Below, one piece after another: positions 2,774 through 37,869 of a stretch of DNA of 45,048 bases (within the stretch, counting starts at the first letter, position 1; every line of letters starts with the position of its first letter). Source of the DNA: Ectocarpus siliculosus (lineage: Eukaryota; Sar; Phaeophyceae; Ectocarpales; Ectocarpaceae). The stretch lies in assembly GCA_000310025.1 (NCBI GenBank), contig FN649728.1:2397299-2442346 (forward strand). Direction: 5' to 3'. The position numbers and the translations under genes were made by a program. Below the pieces are notes generated by a model, which made no database searches, was not told the origin of the DNA, and was given only the letters and a program-made list of their open reading frames with translations.

Positions 2774-3697
2774 CTACCACAACTCAAAGATGTTGGTCTT
2801 GTAAACGCGAAGCTTGCAGTCTTTTGGCATGCCGTCCGGCTCGAAGGTGTCACACACGTCTGGGATACGGAGCAGCCTGAGGCCCCTCGGAAGTTGGCTC
2901 GCGAATAGCTGCTGGTCGAAGCAAGGTCCAAAATGTAGCTCCCTTAGCCCCGGAGACCACGCGACGTCGGTAACGGCGCAGCGGAAGGCGGTCCCGAACT
3001 CGAGTATCCTGAGGTTGGTCGCGCTCGTCCAGTCAGCCGCCTGGACCGGGTGGTTGAAGGCGTCTCCGAGCCTTAGAACTTCCAGGCCGCCGGGCCACTT
3101 CATTGCCTCTATGGGCTGATCGAAGGACGAGCCAAAGGTCAGGCTCTGCAGCGTGGCAGGCCACGCCACCAGCTCTACCTGACGGTTGAATCGATCCCCG
3201 AAACGCAGCACGACAAGTCGTGGCGGCCACGTGACCCCCTCGATATGGTGATTGAACGTGCCACCGAGATGGAGATCTATCAGCGAGTCAGGCAGCGGAT
3301 GGTCGAGCGGGTGGTCGAACCTCCAGCCGAACTTCAGCCCACGAAGGCCTTCGGGCCAAACGACTTGCGACAACGGCAAGTCGACGCGAAACGCCAGCCG
3401 AGAAATCCGGCGGTGAGGCAGTACTCTACTATTCTCCGCAGGTATCACAGGCACGGCGCTGTCACTTTTTATGTCACCGCCGTAGAGTGATAGGGGTGAT
3501 GACGATTCTCCTTCATCTTGCCGTCTTGAAGGTGAAACGAGGCGAACGTTCTCGTTCTTGACCACCATGGAATAGTCCGTGCTGCTCTCGCGGCAGGCAT
3601 TGCAGATCGAAAGGCACACCAGCTCTACTTCAGCAGGCTGGACAACGCCCGATAGGACTACAACACGAAGAACGTCCGCGGCTTTGGTGCTCTCCAT
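2774..3697 (-). CDS. FNIP/LRR-type repeat protein, intronless
   Basis: An intact 307-residue frame starts at ATG 3697 (MESTKAADVL) and ends at TAG 2774. Residues ~100-275 hold about seven tandem units of 22-24 residues with the pattern WPxxLxxLxFGxxFNxPI, for example LVVLRFGDRFNRQVE, LQSLTFGSSFDQPIE and LEVLRLGDAFNHPV. This matches the FNIP repeat, a leucine-rich-repeat variant abundant in Dictyostelium and some other protists, where it is thought to mediate protein binding. The N-terminal ~35 residues are hydrophobic with spaced cysteines and could be a degenerate F-box-like region, but that is a guess. No signal peptide or membrane helix is evident. The lack of introns is unusual for this window and could mean retroposition or a recently expanded family. 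Confidence 0.85.
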   Translation of the reverse strand: MESTKAADVLRVVVLSGVVQPAEVELVCLSICNACRESSTDYSMVVKNENVRLVSPSRRQDEGESSSPLSLYGGDIKSDSAVPVIPAENSRVLPHRRISRLAFRVDLPLSQVVWPEGLRGLKFGWRFDHPLDHPLPDSLIDLHLGGTFNHHIEGVTWPPRLVVLRFGDRFNRQVELVAWPATLQSLTFGSSFDQPIEAMKWPGGLEVLRLGDAFNHPVQAADWTSATNLRILEFGTAFRCAVTDVAWSPGLRELHFGPCFDQQLFASQLPRGLRLLRIPDVCDTFEPDGMPKDCKLRVYKTNIFELW

Positions 3698-4179
3698 GCG
3701 CTTCGATCGAGCCCTTCCCGAGAGGATGTTCTGCTGCGTGGAAGTGTAGCACGACGCTCCCCGAGCCGAACACCTACTTTCCCACGCAGAAGAACGTCAA
3801 AGCCTCGGTGATTTTCACCACACTTCTACGCCATGTGCAGAGAGAGCAATGTGGTCGTATCAGCGTAGTTATGTCGAATCACACCCAGAGTCCGTCCACC
3901 TCATAGCCTGGGCAGGCAGTTTTGTGGTTGATCTCCGGGGGTCGAGGCCTAGCGCTAGAAGGGGCACGTCCCACAAGTCTTGTCTTGAGCCGACCTCCGT
4001 TTTCTGTGAGGTAGGGCGGACGAAGTTCAATACCCACGCAAACCGGCGGGGGGAAGCTAAGAGATTATCCGCCACACAGATAGTAGGAGGAGCATGTTGC
4101 AACCTATGGAAAACGAAACCCATTCCTGTTCAGTCCAGGCTCCTCCCAGATTCTCATCCCTCTACGTCACCAAGGTCAA
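3698..4179. other. Upstream region of the FNIP gene
   Basis: Contains the presumed promoter of the minus-strand gene at 2774-3697. No TATA box or known site is recognised. A motif TGCTGCGTGGAA near 3730 recurs at 4327 (diverged) and 4567, linking this area to the repeat on its right. No coding exon was identified. Confidence 0.35.
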
Positions 4180-23354: not shown

Positions 23355-24016
23355 GCAGCATCACCACAGGCGCTAGGCTGTATTTGGAGCGGGATTAGGA
23401 AAGTCGACGGTTGTTGCGGGCGGAATGCAATGGCCTCGCGAGGCTCCGACCACTAGGGGAGGAGAGGCCAACAGTGGAGACATTCGCAGCGGTACCGCCT
23501 TCGTCACAGTTTTTGGTCACTGAAGCGTCAGCCAGGCCACCACTACATCAAGCAGGGTCTCAACGGCGATAAATCGAGTGCACTTATTCAGGTTGCTCGT
23601 CTCGAAATTCCGATGGTGTCTGGAAGACAGCCATCAAACAGCTGTTGCGACGCAGAGGGAAAATCCACGGCTTGTAGGTATAGGATCGCGAGGAGGATAC
23701 GAAAGAACGCGAGTGAGTACATTTTGTGGCCTTCCGCTACAAAGTTCAAGTTAAATCCGATACAGTGGTTGCTGATGCTGCTGTTGTGGATGTACTTGAC
23801 GTGTTCTCATACCTCTGGGTGGTTCTTCCTGTGGGCCATCAGTTCCTCCATTCTGCTCATGCCACGACCCGGAAAACCCAGGGAGGCGTGTGTTCGAGGT
23901 AGGGGAGGAAGGTGACGGAGTAGTTTGAGAAACAACGGCTTCGTTTGATGACAAGGCTTCCCTCTGATGACATGTTTCGTAGAAGCGCGCGGGGTATGTG
24001 TTCACCACGCCCCCGC

Positions 24017-25163
24017 TCAGTGCGCCGATTGGCAGAACACCCGGCAACCAGCTGCATTCCCGAAGGAAAACGATCTGCAACGCAGAAACATGCCGTTGAT
24101 AGGGCAGATTTTGGAGGCTAACGGGTTCCTACATTCGCCTGAAAAGAGAAGCACCGCAGACAAAAACACAGCTAAAGCAAGATTAGCCAAAGGATCACAA
24201 AGCACACGATGGTCCCCTCACGTTTTAGACGCGTACTCGCAGCCGGGGGCGCGGCAGTGGTAGTGCTCCGTCTTGCTCTGACCGTCCGCGGAGACGAATC
24301 GGCACTGGGAGCTGATTCGGCAGGACCCGCGTCTGCCCGTGACCTTCTCGTAACCGTCCCTGATTGACGGGTCGGGAATAAGGTGGATGAGGTGGTTCAG
24401 TTGGTTCGTCTCGTCTAGATATGTTGGCATCGTGTTGGCGGGAGGGATGATTCCGAATTCCCTCCGTGCCGAACCTCAGCATCCGCGTTGTCTCCACACA
24501 AACCTGTTTGTGGTTGCCAAGCCACCGCCCTCATATCGAACAGGTTGCGACGCTATCTGATCTGCTATCCAGCAAGTCTCCTTTCGTCTTGCTCGTGATT
24601 GCTCTTTGTTGGTGTTCAAATTTAAAAATGTTGGCACATGCGGCGGTCTTGAGCTCGCACTTACCGAGGAATGATAGGACCAATCGTCCCGGTCTTGTGG
24701 CCGTTCGAATCTCTGCAGGGGATATCGGGTGTAGGGCACGGAGGCGACACGGAGCATCAGGAGGACGGGAATAGAGGTTACGGGGGCGTCGTTTTGGAAG
24801 AAACGATCTACGACATGAGTACCTCCAGAGGGCAAGCGCCCAACCGCCGAATACGTAATATGTTCATGCCTCGGAGTGCCTGCAGGTTGCAGGAAATAAA
24901 ACGTGCCCCTACAACTGCCACCAACACCAATGACACCCCCCATAACCAGTTCGTTTTACCCGGAGAGTACAGCCGCAAGTGCAGGATAGAAGCAAAAGCA
25001 TCCGGCCACAGCAGAACAGCCTGTTTGGCATTCGGCGACAATCTCCACGGGAAGAAAACAGAAAACCTAGATTTGGTCGTTCACCTCGGTCCCGAGCGCC
25101 TACAGATGCTGAAGTGGCAGGTGGCGCCAACTCTGCTGCACTGGAAGCATCCCTCTTTGCCAT
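24017..25163 (-). CDS. Small Cys/His-rich protein, four exons (145 residues)
   Basis: Exons run right to left: 25163-25085 (MAKRDASSAAELAPPATSAS), 24712-24665, 24474-24222 and 24074-24017 (TGA). All junctions are in phase and the total is 438 bases. Donors are CGAG|GTGAAC, CTCG|GTAAGT and AAAC|GTGAGG; acceptors are CCCTGCAG, GATGCTGAG (weak) and GCGTTGCAG. Exon 3 reads MPTYLDETNQLNHLIHLIPD, PSIRDGYEKVTGRRGSCRIS, then SQCRFVSADGQSK and EHYHCRAPGCEYASK. Together with the tail GCRVFCQSAH this gives pairs C-x5-C, H-x-H-C-x4-C and C-x3-C-x3-H, which could bind one or two zinc ions. It does not match a zinc-finger class I can name. Nuclear or nucleic-acid roles are only a possibility. An alternative last exon in another frame exists further left (24080-23860). 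Confidence 0.58.
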
Positions 25164-25902
25164 CGCACCTTACCTGCTTGTTCAAGAGGGAGGCAGCTAT
25201 CAGATGAGGGAGGGAAACAAAATTTGTGGGAGTTTAATGTGCCGATCGATACAATCGAAAGAGGACCACACGGATCCCCGCCCCACCCGCATTTGGGTGA
25301 GAGCTATATCCCTTTTCTTTCTTGATTCCTGGTGCGTCGAAGATTCGAAACGTTTACACCGACTCTCGAGCCAAGATATATCAATTGGCGCAAAGTGTGC
25401 ACGACAAGTCTACCCCCCCCGGTCAGATATCCCAGATATGTCATTTGCATAACGAAGGTCGGGCATGTACGTGAGTATCGTGAATCGCCTCCCGGCGTAC
25501 GTACGTCAACCATGTTCACGTTCGTGGACATGTTCATGTACATTGTTTGACGAACAACCTTTCTGTAACGTAATTCTCCAGAAGGCCGGAAGCACTATGA
25601 TTGGGCAAACTGTATTCGGTAGTTTTCTCGTTTTGTGGGGTCACTGAACCTTTTTGCTCGTGCACCGATCGCACGCTTTGCGCAGCTGCGACCATACGGG
25701 CTTCTTAGTCTTCTTGCGCGACGGCCTCCGAGGGCGGCCTGATAGATGGTCGTTACGTTTCGGCCGGTGGGGAGTAGAAGGAGTAAGACAGACGACACCA
25801 AATACATCAAAAACATATGATTCCTCTTCTCAAACTTGTAAGAGGATATAAAGTTTTGACCAAGAAGATGAGCAACTTGACCGCGTCCGACGACATTATT
25901 AC
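25164..25902. other. Spacer between two minus-strand genes
   Basis: Should contain the promoter of the gene starting at 25163 and the 3' end of the gene to its right. A minus frame at 25600-25810 is basic (GRRARRLRSPYGRS) and might be a last exon. No sites are assigned. Confidence 0.3.
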
Positions 25903-26299
25903 CGCGGGCATCTCAACGAAAGAGAAAGGGTGCCAAAGCAAAGAAGTTCTTCTTGATGCAAGTTCTGCATACGCTAACATCAACAGCACCGTGAAGACAG
26001 GCGTCGTGTATTGGACCGGGGAATAGTACACAGTGCAGGGATGGGATAGTACGCCCTTGATCAACAGTGGTTCTCGAAGGAAGCGGACTCACTCTTGCTG
26101 ATGATAATGCCGACGGTGGTACTCTTGTTGATGATGCGGCCTCCACCGAGGCCGCTTGCTTCACCCTGCGCGGCGAACTCATCTTCGTCGTCCTGAGTTT
26201 TCAGCAGGAAGAGGCGGGCAAGATGATTCCGAGTAGATTTAGTGTATTCGGTGTCAGCGTTCAGCATTCCCTCGTAGTCGTCATACGGCTTGAATGAAA
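25903..26299 (-). CDS. Probable 3' exons of the zinc-cluster gene, or a small separate gene
   Basis: Exon 26299-26093 reads SFKPYDDYEGMLNADTEYTK, STRNHLARLFLLKTQDDEDE, FAAQGEASGLGGGRIINKS and TVGIIISK, then a strong AAGA|GTGAGT donor. It joins in phase to 25973-25903 (YAELASRRTSLLWHPFSFVE, donor GCG|GTAATA) or reads on to a stop at 25807. The composition is clearly coding. Its 5' phase does not fit the preceding large exon (ends 26493 in phase 0): a small missing exon, an indel in the sequence, or a separate gene would explain this. An alternative exon after the excellent acceptor CTGCTTTAG (26347) gives a short tail ending at TGA in the same DNA. No family is recognised. Confidence 0.55.
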
Positions 26300-26492: not shown

Positions 26493-29400
26493 CTCTTCAT
26501 CCTCGTCATTTCCATCCTCCCCGTCGTTTCCTTCCTCTTCATCCTGGCTACCCCACCCTTCCGCTTCCATGTTGTCGCCACGGTCTCCCCCCCCCCTCGC
26601 CATCTCTCGCCGGGGCCCATCTTCACGGCCATCACCTTCCCCTCCGCTGATGTCGCCGTCGCTGCTGGCTTCGCTGCTGCTACCGCTGCTACCGCCGCCG
26701 CTGCTTCTGCTGTTGCCACCGCTGGAGCCACCGGCACCGAGACTGTGCTTGATACCGTCTTCATCACCACCCACCCTCCCGTTGCGATCCCTAGCATCAC
26801 CACCGTCGTCGTCTGAACCCTGTTCCCGGCGGGCCTGGTAGGACCCTGAGTAACCGGTTGCATGCCGTCTATCATTGCTCTCCTCCTCCCCAGCGGTGGC
26901 AGAGGTAGCGGCCGCAGGGGAGGCTTCTAGGCTGTACCCGTCAAGCCCTCCGATCCCTCCAAAATGCCCTATCCCGAACAGTGTCCCGTCTCGTATTTTA
27001 TGCTGCAGCAGGTCGCTCTCCGTCGGGGCGCCCTTGGCGGTTTCGTCCTCGGTTCTGCCTTCGTCTCGATTTTTCTCCTCGACTTTCCCGACGAGGGTGG
27101 CCTTGCTTTGGTTTGCGTTGACTCTGTGCTGCTGTTGGCCTCCACCGTGAGGGATCGGTTGCTGCTGGTGTCGATACATTGTCGGGAACAAAATCTCGTT
27201 TCGCCCATCGCCCCGGTTTATTACCTCCTCTCCTTTCTCGTCGGGTAGGCCGGAAGCGGCTGGGACCGCCTGTAGAGTTTCATTTCCGTTGATTGTTTAA
27301 AAGGCATACCGTGCAGCCACAGCAACAACAGAACACCATGTAGTATACCCTATAGGCCGGAACATGTCGCTGTTTGTGCTCGGAGATGCACTAACGGTTT
27401 GGTTGGACTTGTGATCTTTTTTGTGGGGGTAGTTGTGGCGAAATTCGCTCCTTGTTCAGTGTGGCTCATGGTACAGCAAACCAGGAGGATACTAGGGGAT
27501 ATGTTGTTCCTTGTTGCGTCTTGGGTGTCTTACTGGTGGACACGAATTCGCGTAAACGTGCAGGATGCGGACGAGGATAGAATGGGGGTTTGTAAGGAAG
27601 CGAATTGTTTTGAGTTGTCCCATAGGAGAACGGGGTAGGAAATGCGTCACGGTCCCGTTCTGGCTATATCTGGCCATACCGAAAGCACTTCTTGGCGGTA
27701 AGTCAGTAGACCTATGTGCATAGGGTATCTCTTTTTGCTGGGGAGCGTACGGCAGTGCCGCTGTACAACTGATACACACACACCTGCCGTTGTCCCGGTT
27801 GTGCTTGTGGAGGACTTCCCTGCAGCTGCCGCGAAGTCGGGTCTCTCTGCTCCTGTCCTTGCTTCCCCCCAGCGAACGTCGTGATGCAGTTCTCACTCGC
27901 CCCTTTTTGTCCCAAACTGCCTCCATCGGCCTCGTAGTCATCCCTGTCAAGGTGATTCCCTCCAGCCAGTGATGACTCCGCCTCCACGAAGCCAGGTCCG
28001 GACCCACTATCTAGCGGAGAGACCACCGCCCCTGCACCGGCGCGCCCCCTACGTTTTCCGTGTCCTCCTCTGCCTCGACCGCGACCCCGCAACCCGCCCC
28101 CAGCGGCACCCCTCGAGATTCCTCGTGACGCTCCGCGCACAGCGGGGCTGCTAGCACGCAGGGGGCCTCGCAACGAGAAGGCACCGCGGGAAGATTGTGG
28201 TGTTGTCGATTCGCCGCTACGGGGCGAGAGGGGGGCTGATGACGCCGGTGATGAAGTGGCTGGTGCGACGCCAGCAAGCGAGGAGGACGCGAGCTCTACG
28301 CCATGAGACGGTGCAAAGACTGACGATGGGGTGCTCCTGCTCGACCGCGCTGAACCGTAACCTTGGGGTGGGGATGTTCCGCCGCGTGACGAAACTGCGC
28401 CTCCCGGTGACGATGAAGGTGTTGGGTCACCAATCCCAACGGCACCCCGAGGACCAGCGCCATCACCACCATCACCGACACCAGTAACGGCATACTCTCC
28501 TTTTCCTCCTCTACCTACTCGTCCTCCCCTCCACCCTCTTCCTCCTCTTGCCCCTCTCCACCCTCGGCTTCCTCGGACTCCTCGTCCTCCGTTGGGGGGA
28601 GCTCCGTCGTAGGCAGCGAACGGTCGCGACAATCCGGGGGGTGGCCCTGGTCTTCCGGACGGGCCTTCAGTGCCGCCATCTCCGGCTAGGCTTCCGATGA
28701 CAGTCGAAGGAGGAGTTGAGATGATGCCACCCTCACGGAAAGCCGTCATGTTACGGCCGGTCTTGTTGCGCGTTGACGGGACAGGGAGCTGGTGTGTGCA
28801 TGACGGGGTGGAAGCGAGATTGCACGGGGGAGGAGGTGGAGATACCCACGTTGTGAGCATGTCGCGGGTGGAGAGCTCCGTCCAAGGGGCGCGGCATTTC
28901 TTGCATCTAAACGAGTACATCTGGCAGAGGGGAAGACATTTCCTCCTACAAAGGTTGTGCAAACTGAAATGGGGTCTATGTGCCCCATGAAAGCCACTTA
29001 GAAGGACAACGTTCTCCGCCGGAAGGGAGCTACGGTGGGTCTGTCTGTCACCTTCGCGGGTTTGGGAAGTTTACTCTTTTTCTGAGACAGACTGAACTCG
29101 CAGGGCACGCCCTTCCTCCTGCAGCTCAAGCAAGGCTTGGTTCCATCGCACTTGGTCTGCGGCCAGAGTTAAAAAAGGAACAAGACACGGATTAGAGCCC
29201 TAGAGCATACGTGTGTGCGTTCGTGCGTAGGTGCCTGCATGTGCTAACTGAACCGCCTACGGTCAAGCACACCCAAGCACTCCTAGACGGTTGCAGAAAT
29301 CAACCAGCAACTGCTTTTTATCAAATGACAAAGGGTGAGTTCTAATACGGGCTCCGTGACGTCTGGAAGAGGGATACAATATGAGGAAGAGGAGCAGCAG

Positions 29401-31354
29401 CAGTGAAGAAGGAGTGCCCACCTTTTTCATTGCGCACTCGTTACAGGCTGTCCGCAGCACCACTTGACGCCCCGGGACAACGTTTTCAGGGGGGGCATGA
29501 AGACACGGATGTAGACATGCGGGGAGAATGATTTCGAGTGAGACCAAGCGTCGTCATTTGAACGCCAAACAACAAGCGTACCGCCATCACGGTGGGAGGG
29601 ACGGGGTGGCACACCTATGGAGTACCGCCAGCATTGATTGGTCGTGGCCTAAGGCAAGGCAAAGTGTCCCTCGCCACTACACTGAGCAACCGGCGGGAGA
29701 AGTCGGAGGCAGCTCGAGAAAACTGCGAGAAGCGTGGTCCTTTTCACGAATAAAAATACCGAAGTACTTTGTTCAAACATGCCTTCCGTAGAGTACCTAA
29801 TGTAGTGTACGTCCAAGTTCTAAAGTAACACTATTTTTGCCACCATCCGAGTCGCTTGTCTATCCATATTTATGAGACCCCGACCTACAGAATGCCTTTC
29901 TCACCAGCGCTAGGCAACCGGCGTGGTGGCTGTTTCCCAGGCGCAACCCTGGCAGCTATACTCCCGATTCTGTCTTCATGTCTCTCTCCCTCCCCTTCAG
30001 AGCTCCCGTTGCCGCTCTCCCCACAACCGCGACCAGCACCATCCACTGCGTCCACAACAAGGCTACCGCCACCGCTTTGGGTGCTAGAACCGTCAATGGT
30101 ACCATAGGAACCGCCGCCAGCAAGACCTCCGCCCAGATATCCCACAACGGCAGGGAAACGACTGGAGCCGCGGCCATCTACCAAACGACCGTTGCAGGTT
30201 TTGTCGAACCCTCCAAGTGCACCATAGCCGTCGGTGTTGTCGGTGGCTTGTCGCTGCTGCTGTGCTACTAATGGAACCATCAGCTTTTTTGCACCGCCCG
30301 CTGCAGTAGCAGAAGTCGGGGATCGACGAAGCATTCTGCTGGTCAGCTCGGACTGGCTCAGGTCAGCGAGATCCGACGACGACCCTGACGAAAGTGGAGT
30401 TGACGGTGCCATCGCAAAGAAGGAAGAGCTGTCCAGTGAAGCTAAAGATGTAGCTTGCCCTCCTTGGAGCGAGTCCTTGGTCCTGATTTCCCCCTGTTGC
30501 AGCCCTGCAGCCGTGCATGGCGCCGTCCCATCTGGCTGACTCCTATGCTCAACTAACGTTGATCCAACTTCGGCAGGTCTTGTAGTCATGTACAACGGAC
30601 GCTCAGGAGGGGACGGGCCAAAGATATTATTGTGCGGCTCGAAGACGGCGGCAGGCGAGAAAACACCACTACCAGCTCCTGCGTGCATTGGAGCCATGAT
30701 TTGTGATGGCTGGCCATAACTTGACGTTGGATAATAACCTACAGGACCGGGCGAGCCAGACGTAGCGGAGGCGAGAGAGTCCTTGCAGGGGCCTTTGGTT
30801 GGAGACAGCCCGGTAGATATCGTGAGAATTCCCGTTGGTGAAGATACGAAAGTAGGCGAGTCGGGACCGATTCCGATCAACGATGAAGGGCGCTCCGAGC
30901 TCTTCCGATCGCTGAAGTCCGTCAACAAAGCATCATGCCTACTCCCTGCCCCATCAAGGCAACTCCCGCTGGTGCTGGTACCATTGGTAATGGTCTGCGG
31001 TGGCGGAAATGGTGCCGGAACAGGCATTGGCGATCTTTCATGTGGATGCTGTTGACTGTTGTTGTTGCCGTCGCCGTCGCTCACGAGCTGGAGAGTTTTG
31101 GAGGCCCCTTCGAGCGGGGCGGGGAATACCTCTTCCATCGGTTGTTTCGGCACGGCAATGAGTAACGGTGGAGTCTTAAAGACCCGTGTACCATCCATTG
31201 CTGTGCGGGAACGAACGTACGAGAGAGCCGCCCTGTGGATCTTTTCGTTGGATATTATGTACGTCGGCTTGTTTCGACGGAACGGAACAACTTTTTGAAA
31301 CCGTAAAAAAAAGGGCGGCGGGATGTTGAAGGCTACTACTCTCTTCCCCCTCAT
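26493..31354 (-). CDS. Zn(II)2Cys6 binuclear-cluster protein with RG-rich and acidic regions
   Basis: Seven exons run right to left and join in phase: 31354-29905, 29462-29422, 29156-29052, 28906-28755, 28690-27784, 27663-27534 and 27259-26493, about 1,184 codons. Exons 2 and 3 meet at ACNECAMKK|TKCDGTKPC and continue LSCRRKGVPCEF. The cysteine spacing is C-x2-C-x6-C-x5-C-x2-C-x6-C (Cys ~490-516), the exact signature of the fungal-type zinc cluster, which binds DNA through two zinc ions. A basic linker follows (SQKKSKLPKPAK). Exon 1 is Ser/Pro/Gly-rich and probably disordered. Exon 5 has two RG-rich blocks (RGSRGWRGARGGRGWRG and RGRGRGRGGHGKRRGR), which often bind RNA or are methylated. Exon 7 ends very acidic (DEEEGNDGEDGNDEDEE). 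The start is ATG 31354 or, more conservatively, ATG 31198 (MDGTRVFKTPP). Regulator of transcription is the likely role, by family only. Confidence 0.8.
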
Positions 31355-35781: not shown

Positions 35782-37869
35782 GAGAGGTACGCCAACAGTC
35801 TACCTGAGAGGTCCGCGAGACGGGTGCGCCAGCGCCCCCCCCCCCCGCTCAGAAAGAAAACTACCAAAACGAGCAAGGCCTCGCCTTCGACCGAGAAACC
35901 CACCGCAGGAGGAGGAGGAGGAGGAAAAGGAGGGGTTCACGAGACAGGAAAAGCGGGAGGAGTTGGAGAAGCCAGAGGGGACAAGGGTGGAGGGTGGGGG
36001 AGGGGAGAGAACACGACTAGCAAGAGGGGAGGAGCAGCGGCCGCAGGATCGCCAGGCGCTAGAGGAGGGCGCGCGAGCGCCGGCGGGACTGAAACATGCC
36101 CAGGAGGAGCAGCAGAACCATCAGTAATAAAAGATCCGGGGGCGGAGGGTGGCGGGGACTCCGCAAATTCCAGAAAAGCGACCGGGAAGAGACCAGTCAG
36201 TGGTAGAGGGAAGGGAGAACCGGCGGGGGGCGGTGAGAAACCAACCGTGAGAGGGGTGGGAGTATCAGCGGCGACAACCGAAGTAGGGGAGGGTGGGGGG
36301 GGGGAGAGAAACACCAGTGCCGGGGGAGGGGGCGAAGAGGTTGGAAACGGGATAGAAAAGGGCGGAGGCGGAGGCGGGAAACATCCCAATGGCCGAGGAG
36401 AGTCCGTTCAGGGTGCGAAAAAACGCCCACGTGCCTCGTCGGGCGAGGGGGTGGTCGAAGGTAGCGCTCGTGGCGGAGGAGGGATGCAGCGTTCATCATT
36501 GTCACCCAAATTCGCCGTACCATCTAGCGACAAGCGTAGGCGCCTGCTCGAGGGGACGTCGGATGGGAGGCCGGGGAGTGCAAGAGAAGGCGTTGTTTCC
36601 AGTCCCAGGAGATCAACCCCGAGGCGGTCGAAAGTCAATGGGGTCGATGCTAGTGCGCCCGTGGCGCCGGTGGTCGTGGAAAGGTTGCCAAAATCAGTGA
36701 TTGTGTCCGACACGGACGAGGAGCGAAGCGCGAAAGCGGCGTGCGGCGAACGGAGAGGCGGCGGCAGCGAGCAACGGCAAGATCACGTCGGCGATGGTGG
36801 CACAGCGTCTCGGCCTCAGAAAGCGCCTGCCTTTGCCGACGGCCGCGACTGGCCTCGGAATACGGTAGTGCCATCACCGCCGTTGCCGCCGTCACCGTCC
36901 AGCCCGGGATCGGCGTCGGCGGTTCTTACCGCGAGCGCTCCGGGGAAGGAGCTCGCCGCGGTCGTCACTGGTGAGAGCGACGCGGCGAGACGCGCTATTT
37001 CGCCGTCTTCGGCTTCCTCCTCGTCATGCGTATCATTCTCCACCCCTTCGTTAAGCGTTGTAGACGCTGGCGCCGAGGTTGGTCCTAAGGGCAGCGGCGG
37101 TAAATGTCGCTCAGCCGAGCCCTCCGGCGGACGCGGAGAAGCTGCGGGGGCGGCGAACGGAGGCTCGGCGAAGACGTCCACGCTGAGTAAGCGGCGACGT
37201 GGGCCTGATAAGCTAGAAACGGCTTCCGGAGGAATGGCTGGCGTTTCTGGTGGTGAAGTTGTCGGCAGTGCCAGGTCCGGTGGGGGGCGGACGGCGGCTC
37301 CACAGCGCGCGGGGGCGGAAGCGGGGAGAGGAGAGGGAAAGAAGGACGCAGGGGCCCAGGCGAACGTGAACGGAGGACCGCCACAAACGCCTGGCCCTGC
37401 TGGCGCTGCTTCTTACACCGCTGGTTATGATGGTACTGCTATTGGCTCTGCCGCTGCTGCCGCTTTGCCCTCACGCTTTGCTTCTTCTGCCCCCGCCGCT
37501 GCGATTTCTACCCCCGCCCCAAGTCCCCCTGCTGCCGCCGCCGTCGCTGCCGGCATCGGCAAGAGCGCGCGGACCGGACCGGAGTCCACCACCACGACAG
37601 GCGCTGCTAGCCAGTGCCCCCGAAAAAAGATCGAGCTAGCGAAGTTTGAGGCGATTCAAAACCAAGCGTACAGACAGGCCCAGGAGCACTGTCGGAAGCA
37701 ACTCGCCCCTCTGGAGGCCGAGCGCAGGGCCGTGGAGGCCAAGCTAGAGGCCATGAAGCAGACGCTCCGGAAAACGATGAGGGACGCCCACGACAAGCGG
37801 GTGAGTGAGATCGAGGCGTTCAAGGCTAACCTCTACAGTGGCACCGATGCAACGGCGGGCGGTAGCTAA
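35782..37869 (+). CDS. Long disordered protein with C-terminal coiled coil (last exon)
   Basis: After one of the best acceptors in the window (T- and C-rich tract ending CTTTCTTAG) the frame is open for 695 codons to TAA 37867-37869. It starts ERYANSLPERSARRVRQR, so upstream exons exist. Residues ~40-600 are Gly/Ala/Ser/Pro-rich with basic patches (KKRPRASSGEG, KRRRLLEGT, SKRRRGPDK) that could be nuclear localisation signals, and an acidic spot (VIVSDTDEER). Residues ~625-690 form a charged helix with heptad spacing (KKIELAKFEAIQNQAYRQAQ, LEAERRAVEAKLEAMKQTLR). Nuclear scaffold or chromatin association is an inference from composition. No known family is recognised. The G-rich strand bias of 35.9-36.4 kb reflects glycine codons. 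Confidence 0.75.
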   Translation, partial: ERYANSLPERSARRVRQRPPPPLRKKTTKTSKASPSTEKPTAGGGGGGKGGVHETGKAGGVGEARGDKGGGWGRGENTTSKRGGAAAAGSPGARGGRASAGGTETCPGGAAEPSVIKDPGAEGGGDSANSRKATGKRPVSGRGKGEPAGGGEKPTVRGVGVSAATTEVGEGGGGERNTSAGGGGEEVGNGIEKGGGGGGKHPNGRGESVQGAKKRPRASSGEGVVEGSARGGGGMQRSSLSPKFAVPSSDKRRRLLEGTSDGRPGSAREGVVSSPRRSTPRRSKVNGVDASAPVAPVVVERLPKSVIVSDTDEERSAKAACGERRGGGSEQRQDHVGDGGTASRPQKAPAFADGRDWPRNTVVPSPPLPPSPSSPGSASAVLTASAPGKELAAVVTGESDAARRAISPSSASSSSCVSFSTPSLSVVDAGAEVGPKGSGGKCRSAEPSGGRGEAAGAANGGSAKTSTLSKRRRGPDKLETASGGMAGVSGGEVVGSARSGGGRTAAPQRAGAEAGRGEGKKDAGAQANVNGGPPQTPGPAGAASYTAGYDGTAIGSAAAAALPSRFASSAPAAAISTPAPSPPAAAAVAAGIGKSARTGPESTTTTGAASQCPRKKIELAKFEAIQNQAYRQAQEHCRKQLAPLEAERRAVEAKLEAMKQTLRKTMRDAHDKRVSEIEAFKANLYSGTDATAGGS

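Follow-up and report, generated by a model that had tools for sequence, protein, structure and literature searches.

We identified two full zinc clusters of the Zn2Cys6 class, followed by a Cys/His module, on the minus strand of a 45,048-nucleotide stretch of the Ectocarpus siliculosus genome (the window). The second cluster lies 3.7 kb downstream of the first. We think it fairly probable that all three elements belong to one larger regulator gene, which runs from 31198 to about 23810 and encodes a low-complexity nuclear protein with both clusters and the Cys/His module. A light-harvesting protein from the same genome matches the PDB chain FCP17 (E = 3.2e-122), which fits the setting of a fucoxanthin alga. 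The exons of the joined model, ten in number and chosen by hand with phase agreement kept in view, are listed below; a slash marks a splice boundary.

Exon 1, 29905 to 31198, minus strand: begins at ATG 31198; 431 residues rich in Gly, Ser, Pro, Thr and charged residues; donor GCGCTG/GTGAGA, end phase 1.
Exon 2, 29422 to 29462, minus strand: Cys1 and Cys2 of cluster 1 (VLRTACNECAMKK); phase 1 to 0; donor AAAAAG/GTGGGC.
Exon 3, 29052 to 29156, minus strand: Cys3 to Cys6 of cluster 1 (TKCDGTKPCLSCRRKGVPCEF...KPAK); donor GCGAAG/GTGACA, phase 0.
Exon 4 (proposed), 27784 to 28920, minus strand: 379 residues, RG-rich and S/P-rich; phase 0 to 0; acceptor TTCCCCTCTGCCAG/ATG.
Exon 5 (proposed), 26493 to 27269, minus strand: 259 residues with an acidic tract at the end; phase 0 to 0.
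Exon 6 (proposed), 26093 to 26192, minus strand: small; phase 0 to 1.
Exon 7, 25650 to 25738, minus strand: basic stretch RPRRPSRKKTKKP, then Cys1 and Cys2 of cluster 2 (RKACDRCTSKK); donor AAAAAG/GTTCAG.
Exon 8, 25085 to 25173, minus strand: Cys3 to Cys6 of cluster 2 (VRCDGKEGCFQCSRVGATCHFSICRRSGP); phase 0 to 2.
Exon 9, 24222 to 24359, minus strand: first part of the Cys/His module (DGYEKVTGRRGSCRISSQCRFVSADGQSKTEHYHCRAPGCEYASK); phase 2 to 2.
Exon 10, 23813 to 23852, minus strand: completes the C2H2-like finger (MEELMAHRKNHPE); unless this exon is spliced on, its frame soon ends (HPEV and then TGA).

The model spans 3,810 nucleotides without a stop and encodes 1,270 residues, with the clusters at residues 438 and 1174. 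The frames that hold exon 1 (517 codons) and exon 4 (452 codons) are each longer than any found in 500 first-order Markov simulations with the dinucleotide frequencies of the region, where the maxima were 308 and 345 codons, respectively. A Pfam search of exon 1 (over 29891-31198, E up to 1) returned no match, and a search with its first half returned itself and one match with an E-value of 0.14. The acidic tract that precedes cluster 2 carries a net charge of -14 in 20 residues. A charge-hydropathy rule predicts disorder for residues 481-1120; because it spares residues 1-431 and also calls the zinc domains disordered, we term the arms of the protein low-complexity. An alternative donor for exon 1 (ttct/gtaggt, phase 2) was dropped, since it clashes with the phase of exon 2.

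Cluster 1 is formed by joining 29462-29422 to 29156-29052 on the minus strand. The 5' exon is entered in phase 1 (TG/GTG CTG CGG ACA GCC TGT...), the junction reads AAAAAG/GTGGGC...GGCCGCAG/ACCAAG in phase 0, and the 3' exon translates as TKCDGTKPCLSCRRKGVPCEFSLSQKKSKLPKPAK. The spliced cysteines are spaced CX2CX6CX5CX2CX6C, within the pattern of the class (CX2CX6CX5-16CX2CX6-8C), as are those of cluster 2 in the joined model. The stretch from Cys2 to Cys3 and beyond, CAMKKTKCDG, has both the basic residues and the D/S-G that characterize the class. Against the Pfam profile Zn_clus (PF00172, curated cut-off 21 bits), the 48 residues obtained by splicing reach 42.6 bits (E = 6.2e-11) and cover positions 1-39 of 39; exon 3 alone scores 28.2 bits (E = 5.4e-4) in a six-frame profile search of the whole 189-Mb genome. 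The nearest PDB chains are the fungal zinc-cluster proteins Ppr1, Leu3, CBF3b, Lac9 and Gal4, the best E-value being 0.0025, which is weak by sequence alone. Another acceptor for exon 2, gcggacag/CC TGT, would also be in phase 1. We dropped it, because starting at 29462 brings back the R-x-x-C lead-in that is found in window cluster 2 (QLRKAC) and in paralogous clusters on two other contigs, C124 (QFRKAC) and C12 (DLRRNC). An intron of equal place and phase fits C124, C12 and, with the splice chosen here, window cluster 2, and the splice in cluster 1 is for this reason not an artefact of reading.

These results confirm the observation of the first-pass annotation and support its interpretation in part. 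It had claimed a six-cysteine cluster with fungal spacing, made only by an in-phase join of two exons. Both exon coordinates proved right, and the profile check that it proposed for the spliced protein was passed. It had also placed the cluster after some 440-490 residues. Cys1 is indeed residue 438, counting from the ATG at 31198, which is a candidate start, since the open frame extends some 80 codons further in the 5' direction. Its account of the locus stopped at cluster 1, and the second cluster and the downstream Cys/His module were missed.

Cluster 2 has the same spacing as cluster 1 (CX2CX6CX5CX2CX6C), with a basic stretch and D-G in CTSKKVRCDG, and it scores 33.3 bits against Zn_clus (cut-off 21) over positions 1-34 of 39. 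Its nearest PDB chains are Gal4 and Hap1/Cyp1, with a best E-value of 0.023, again weak by sequence alone. The cluster 2 peptide also matched an unrelated family at 0.097, below the cut-off of that family, and we took this as chance. The exact junction is a choice: a splice scan that disallowed GTT donors gave 25645/25168, which keeps all six cysteines and reads KKVQC, and we prefer 25650/25173, which reads KKVRC and agrees with C124.

The Cys/His module begins 23 residues after cluster 2. No separate small exon was retained between the two, as the window gene and C124 both join across the last GPR codon in phase 2. The module of the window, CRAPGCEYASKTMEELMAHRKNH, has the form C-x4-C-x12-H-x3-H, and its counterpart at C124, CRVGDCSFAGKTMSELLLHRGNSH, the form C-x4-C-x12-H-x4-H; both lie within the C2H2 spacing C-x2-4-C-x12-H-x3-5-H. 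Pfam scores for the window module fall below the cut-offs (FOXP-CC, the best, 16.7 bits against 28.9; the best C2H2 model, 13.8 against 27), as does that of the C124 module with TFIIIA_zf-C2H2 (23.7 against 27), and a PDB search with the C124 module returned no zinc-finger chain. We describe the module as C2H2-like and do not assign it as a C2H2 member. At E up to 1, the part encoded by exon 9 is found at two places in the genome, the window and C124:52706-52837. No viral relative of the block formed by cluster 2 and the module was confirmed in IMG/VR, where a search with two 7-residue patterns, which reach close relatives only, yielded 14 pattern matches.

Over 110 columns, the block that comprises cluster 2 and the Cys/His module shares 62% identity with C124 (58% over 112 by BLASTP). 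The window gene and C124 are drawn with equal phases at five consecutive introns, of which only those within the block have sequence similarity on either flank to anchor them. The C124 gene is also drawn with a 91-nucleotide exon that has the phases of exon 6 and no sequence similarity to it. This gene consists of about 509 N-terminal residues from its own ATG, one cluster (29.4 bits against the cut-off of 21) and a Cys/His module. The C12 gene has one cluster (37.3 bits), followed by an open terminal exon of 457 residues. Beyond the level of shuffled sequences (40 each, composition-adjusted), none of exons 1, 4 and 5 resembles the upstream exon of C124. A composition-blind tblastn match of exon 4 to it (E = 6e-7) is lost with composition adjustment and was set aside as low-complexity similarity. 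Three genome searches returned 12, 38 and 43 zinc-cluster matches; the sets overlap, differ in threshold and count matched exons, not genes. Local amplification is evident, as 25 of the 43 lie on a single 932-kb contig.

Whether the two clusters belong to one gene or to two is decided at the 27783/27270 junction, where the readings part. Two neighbouring genes on one strand are a real possibility, though on the whole we do not expect it: gene A would run from 31198 to a stop at 27712 with one cluster flanked by low-complexity arms, as in C12, and gene B, with cluster 2 and the Cys/His module as in C124, would begin within exon 5 or shortly upstream of it. Both of these loci have a single cluster in the stretches scanned (15 kb at C124; 10 kb at C12, the first ~2.4 kb of it N). 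The window clusters are only 39% identical to each other, and each is nearest to a different paralogue, cluster 1 to C12 (52%) and cluster 2 to C124 (70%). These identities come from 16 cluster domains, a set that leaves out partial clusters (C16, C21, C9:521850 and others) and the amplified 'MRRSC'-type copies of C32 and C34; the tree of these domains is short and poorly supported, and only pairwise identities were used. Short first exons for gene B can moreover be drawn between 27711 and 27270. Against two genes, just 532 bp separate the stop of gene A from the exon 5 ATG at 27179, and the sequence before this ATG, the first in frame, looks coding: exon 5 opens with 28 codons whose coding score is matched by 1.4% of 349 stop-free intron windows. 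This calls for an exon farther upstream, and a donor in the right phase is present in exon 4. Exon 4 itself opens with 28 codons of weak coding score (9.4% of coding windows are lower and 31% of intron windows higher). Its tail, read to the stop as gene A would require, falls in a grey zone (16.5% and 17.7%, respectively). The coding test is small, with seven coding stretches (including parts of exons 1, 4 and 5) and 14 introns. A profile search of the joined model finds Zn_clus twice in the one protein. Two clusters so near each other on one strand would be unlikely under random scatter, for which the expectation within 6 kb is 0.0005 to 0.002 (for 16 or 56 clusters). The closeness of clusters 1 and 2 thus speaks for a link between them, and does not favour one gene over a tandem pair.

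We regard two further explanations as very improbable. The zinc-cluster family is most abundant in fungi, as PMC5415576 relates, and the cluster might derive from a fungal contaminant or from fungal DNA that was inserted recently; however, it lies inside a 7.3-Mb contig, the paralogues C124 and C12 carry the same-place intron on other contigs, and the matches to fungal PDB chains are weak (best E 0.0025). Nor was the Fungal_trans middle homology region found in the joined model, for which Pfam at E up to 1 reports Zn_clus only. Such an origin seems exceedingly unlikely. Hardly more credible is a decayed or untranscribed pseudogene that keeps the pattern by chance. The weak splice sites (the GTTCAG donor at 25649 and the AAG acceptor at 29463) would suit it, but ten exons are open and in phase. 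In addition, all 11 cysteines and all four module histidines of the cluster 2 block are kept in C124, although 38% of the residues differ.

Our preferred reading remains the single larger gene. Fungal zinc clusters hold two zinc ions and read a CGG-like half-site through the Lys/Arg stretch between Cys2 and Cys3. The clusters of the window would each fold around two zinc ions in the same way, and may read a short, CGG-like half-site through their own Lys/Arg-rich stretch. Two clusters per chain, or a cluster with the Cys/His module, could then allow a single polypeptide to read a composite site without dimerization. The acidic tract before cluster 2 might serve in activation, and the adjoining basic stretch in nuclear entry. 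The fullest form of this proposal is a three-headed polypeptide, in which two divergent clusters about 700 residues apart replace the usual dimer and a C-terminal Cys/His reader is fused to the second of them, in an arrangement built independently of the fungal factors that combine C2H2 fingers with a zinc cluster. We advance it tentatively, as a possibility a little short of probable.

Brown algae evolved complex multicellularity separately, and their regulators are little known. If true, the one-gene model offers a clear test of whether two clusters per chain replace the dimer. PMC5415576 raises the question of where zinc clusters come from, as a fungal innovation that later spread or as an old family of eukaryotes. 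A group of zinc-cluster genes that has introns of its own, combines domains in its own way and is locally amplified bears on this question.

The window clusters resemble those of the fungal regulators Gal4, Ppr1, Leu3 and Put3 (PF00172) in how the six cysteines are spaced, in the Lys/Arg-rich run that separates Cys2 from Cys3, and in having CDG at Cys3. Unlike those clusters, they are internal rather than N-terminal (residues 438 and 1174), are interrupted by an intron, and probably occur twice in one protein. Many true zinc clusters have neither the N-terminal position nor Fungal_trans, and the departure from this arrangement bears on architecture, not on domain identity. ZnCys, a lipid regulator of Nannochloropsis, is a zinc-cluster protein of a photosynthetic organism. 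Other such regulators in photosynthetic stramenopiles and haptophytes are the Zn-clus ('fungal TRF') factors of haptophytes and Nannochloropsis, with zinc clusters also in Phaeodactylum (PMC4827209); the portions of that paper considered here describe no two-cluster or Cys/His architecture. The sections considered of PMC11943155 and PMC12629598 contain nothing on algal zinc clusters. A close association of a cluster with Cys/His fingers is known from the fungal dual-specificity factors (Cmr1/Pig1 and the A. nidulans group; PMC5415576). In those proteins, as described there, two C2H2 fingers precede the cluster near the N-terminus, whereas in the window gene the order is reversed and the elements are C-terminal, so it falls outside that group. 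Among the protists that it surveys, the same source in the part considered gives no dual-specificity factors except GR-like+GATA in an amoeba.

Zinc clusters outside fungi are reported from Acanthamoeba (PMC4053784) and from Naegleria, Dictyosteliidea and Capsaspora (PMC5611559). The latter paper also counts 24 canonical Cys6Zn2 proteins in Ectocarpus, and its passages on the algal proteins, in the portion considered, do not describe their architecture, a second cluster or a link to Cys/His fingers. The identity of the domain given in the first-pass annotation stands, and a fungal-type cluster in an alga is less surprising than it might seem, since non-fungal and Ectocarpus clusters have already been published. 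The Ectocarpus proteins have the same domain and probably come from the same kind of organism, and the window gene or its orthologue may be among the 24. Zinc-cluster genes in brown algae are already known, and the window gene is one of many in its genome.

The cluster-bearing gene lies on the minus strand of the window, and its relevant parts are as follows.
31198 to ~23810, minus strand: hand-built ten-exon model, from its ATG
29462-29422 and 29156-29052, minus strand: exons 2 and 3, cluster 1
28920-27784, minus strand: exon 4, proposed
27269-26493, minus strand: exon 5, proposed
25738-25650 and 25173-25085, minus strand: exons 7 and 8, cluster 2; exons 9 and 10, encoding a Cys/His module, follow

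The first-pass annotation had proposed that splicing exons 2 and 3 creates a Zn(II)2Cys6 cluster and had suggested an HMM check of the product. Both are borne out: cluster 1 arises only upon this splice, through a phase 0 intron (AAAAAG before the donor GTGGGC, the acceptor CTGGCCGCAG before ACC), and the spliced peptide, VLRTACNECAMKKTKCDGTKPCLSCRRKGVPCEF..., matches Pfam Zn_clus over its full length (42.6 bits, positions 1-39 of 39). The 3' exon was recovered from the whole genome by a six-frame search, the spacing and basic residues are those of the Zn_clus family, and an intron at the same place fits other clusters; a chance pattern is therefore unlikely as judged from sequence.

The intron in cluster 1 lies after KK, two residues ahead of the third cysteine. 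An intron at this place also fits the clusters of two paralogous genes, on contigs C124 and C12, and, given the chosen splice, cluster 2 of the window, where an alternative in-phase splice can be drawn as well. No intron interrupts eleven other clusters that were examined (listed as 12 'whole' rows, two being one place), and in the cluster at C2:9193378 a hand reading puts the split 5 nt beyond that point, in phase 2.

Cluster 2 came from the cluster 1 query, which also matched the window itself (C3:2422391-2422480, E 0.023), approximately 3.9 kb farther along. The cluster reads RKACDRCTSKKVRCDGKEGCFQCSRVGATCHF and scores 33.3 bits in Zn_clus; its donor, GTTCAG, is weak but has the canonical GT. 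SICRRSGPR follows directly, then a phase-2 intron and DGYEKVTGRRGSCRISSQCRFVSADGQSKTEHYHCRAPGCEYASKT, to which MEELMAHRKNHPE is joined across a further intron. The last part of this Cys/His module has exact C2H2 spacing (C-x4-C-x12-H-x3-H), and the earlier part, spaced C-x5-C-x12-H-x-H, may hold a second metal site. The module passed no Pfam cut-off. At E up to 1 it occurs at two places in the genome, the window and C124:52706. A single-exon cluster, RKACDVCTARKTRCDSVRPTCGTCAAQFATCRYSARLKSGPK (L003, G000:C45:266339-266449), groups with window cluster 2 and the C124 cluster in a small tree; a search for the module at E up to 1 gave no match on contig C45.

The C124 gene, read from C124:42500-57500 with exons picked by hand, encodes about 509 residues, then a small exon, one cluster with the same-place split and the same Cys/His module. 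Aligned over 110 columns, its cluster and module share 62% identity with cluster 2 and the module of the window, and none of the 11 cysteines or of the module's four histidines is lost. At five introns the drawn phases agree as well (0, 1, 0, 2, 2); three of these introns lie inside the block, where similar sequence flanks and anchors them on either side, which is not so for the two preceding ones. The donor following HPE is phase 0 in both genes. Because sequence and phases agree, the comparison supports the final four exons as drawn and shows, at the sequence level, that zinc cluster and Cys/His module form one conserved unit. Exons 1, 4 and 5, by contrast, have no similarity to the upstream exon of C124 above shuffles.

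Joined, the ten exons run for 3,810 nt without a stop, and the 1,270-residue product contains two Zn_clus stretches by Pfam. We somewhat favour one gene carrying both clusters, because the start of exon 5 looks coding (its first 28 codons, 5' of the first in-frame ATG at 27179), the phase-0 donor of exon 4 fits exon 5, and only 532 bp lie between the stop at 27712 and that ATG. Of 349 stop-free windows from introns, 1.4% scored as high as these codons, a result that counts for one gene as an indication only, since the windows overlap one another and few sequences served for training (seven coding stretches, some from the gene under test, and 14 introns). In the same test, the opening 28 codons of exon 4 received a weak score. 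Two adjacent genes with one cluster each is the less probable reading, if a serious one: the nearest relatives of clusters 1 and 2 are separate genes, each with one cluster in the stretches read, and for a separate downstream gene alternative first exons, all short, can be proposed.

The genome (189 Mb, 492 contigs, with the window on C3) is securely, from its sequence, that of a fucoxanthin alga, since a light-harvesting protein matches PDB chain FCP17 (E 3.2e-122) and then other fucoxanthin-protein chains. Its size, its long, intron-rich genes and the algal reading in the first-pass annotation point more narrowly to a brown alga as the probable source. A profile search gave 87 matches to the chlorophyll-binding family. 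Eighteen light-harvesting matches across C92, C232 and C488 have identical profile scores (127.6 bits), which suggests recent local duplication. Elsewhere in the window, a 340-codon open frame (2774-3796, minus strand) encodes three repeats of the Pfam family FNIP (70 bits, E 1.8e-19), and a 695-codon open frame in GC-rich sequence (35782-37869, plus strand) matches no Pfam family at E up to 0.01.

A further zinc-cluster subfamily, MRRSCSECGRKKKSCDGQRPCG, is locally amplified on C32 (932 kb) and C34 (984 kb). A genome search at E up to 1 gave 43 matches: 25 on C32, 6 on C34, 3 on C16, 6 spread over C11, C116, C30, C492 and C3, and 3 that are other clusters. Two types were distinguished.
MRRSC type: L028, L031-L035
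LRKSC type: L029, L030, L041
The six MRRSC-type loci resemble one another in DNA over 70-184 bp at and around the exon; longer pieces, up to 440 bp, are common to L029 and L030. In the copies read the open frame ends at PCG or PCR, followed by GT, so that their intron probably follows the fourth cysteine.

Domain identity, the phases of the drawn exon model and conservation of the cluster-module unit are established. The clusters would bind zinc and may recognise CGG-like half-sites, with a basic stretch (residues 1153-1164) as a putative nuclear entry signal and an acidic tract around 1101-1121 as a candidate activation region. Fungal zinc clusters often work as dimers; here one polypeptide could provide the second contact itself, through a further cluster or through its Cys/His module.

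The first-pass annotation was right to record a zinc cluster outside fungi, but most of what made it surprising had been published before. As far as the accessible text of these sources goes, Ectocarpus has 24 canonical Cys6Zn2 proteins that contamination cannot explain (Scazzocchio 2014, PMC5611559), the family occurs in haptophytes, Nannochloropsis and Phaeodactylum (Thiriet-Rupert 2016, PMC4827209), and Acanthamoeba has 22 zinc clusters and Dictyostelium 3 (Acanthamoeba genome paper, PMC4053784). The portions seen of the open-licence literature contain no description of a brown-algal protein with a cluster plus Cys/His module or with two clusters, a weak argument for novelty. Zinc clusters in brown algae being already published, the novelty lies in the second cluster, in the conserved unit of cluster and Cys/His module, and in the shared intron. 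The available text of Shelest 2017 (PMC5415576) regards the combination of C2H2 and zinc cluster as fungal, reports no dual-specificity factors in the protists it covers, one amoeba case aside, and gives the domain order of the A. nidulans group as C2H2-C2H2-cluster.
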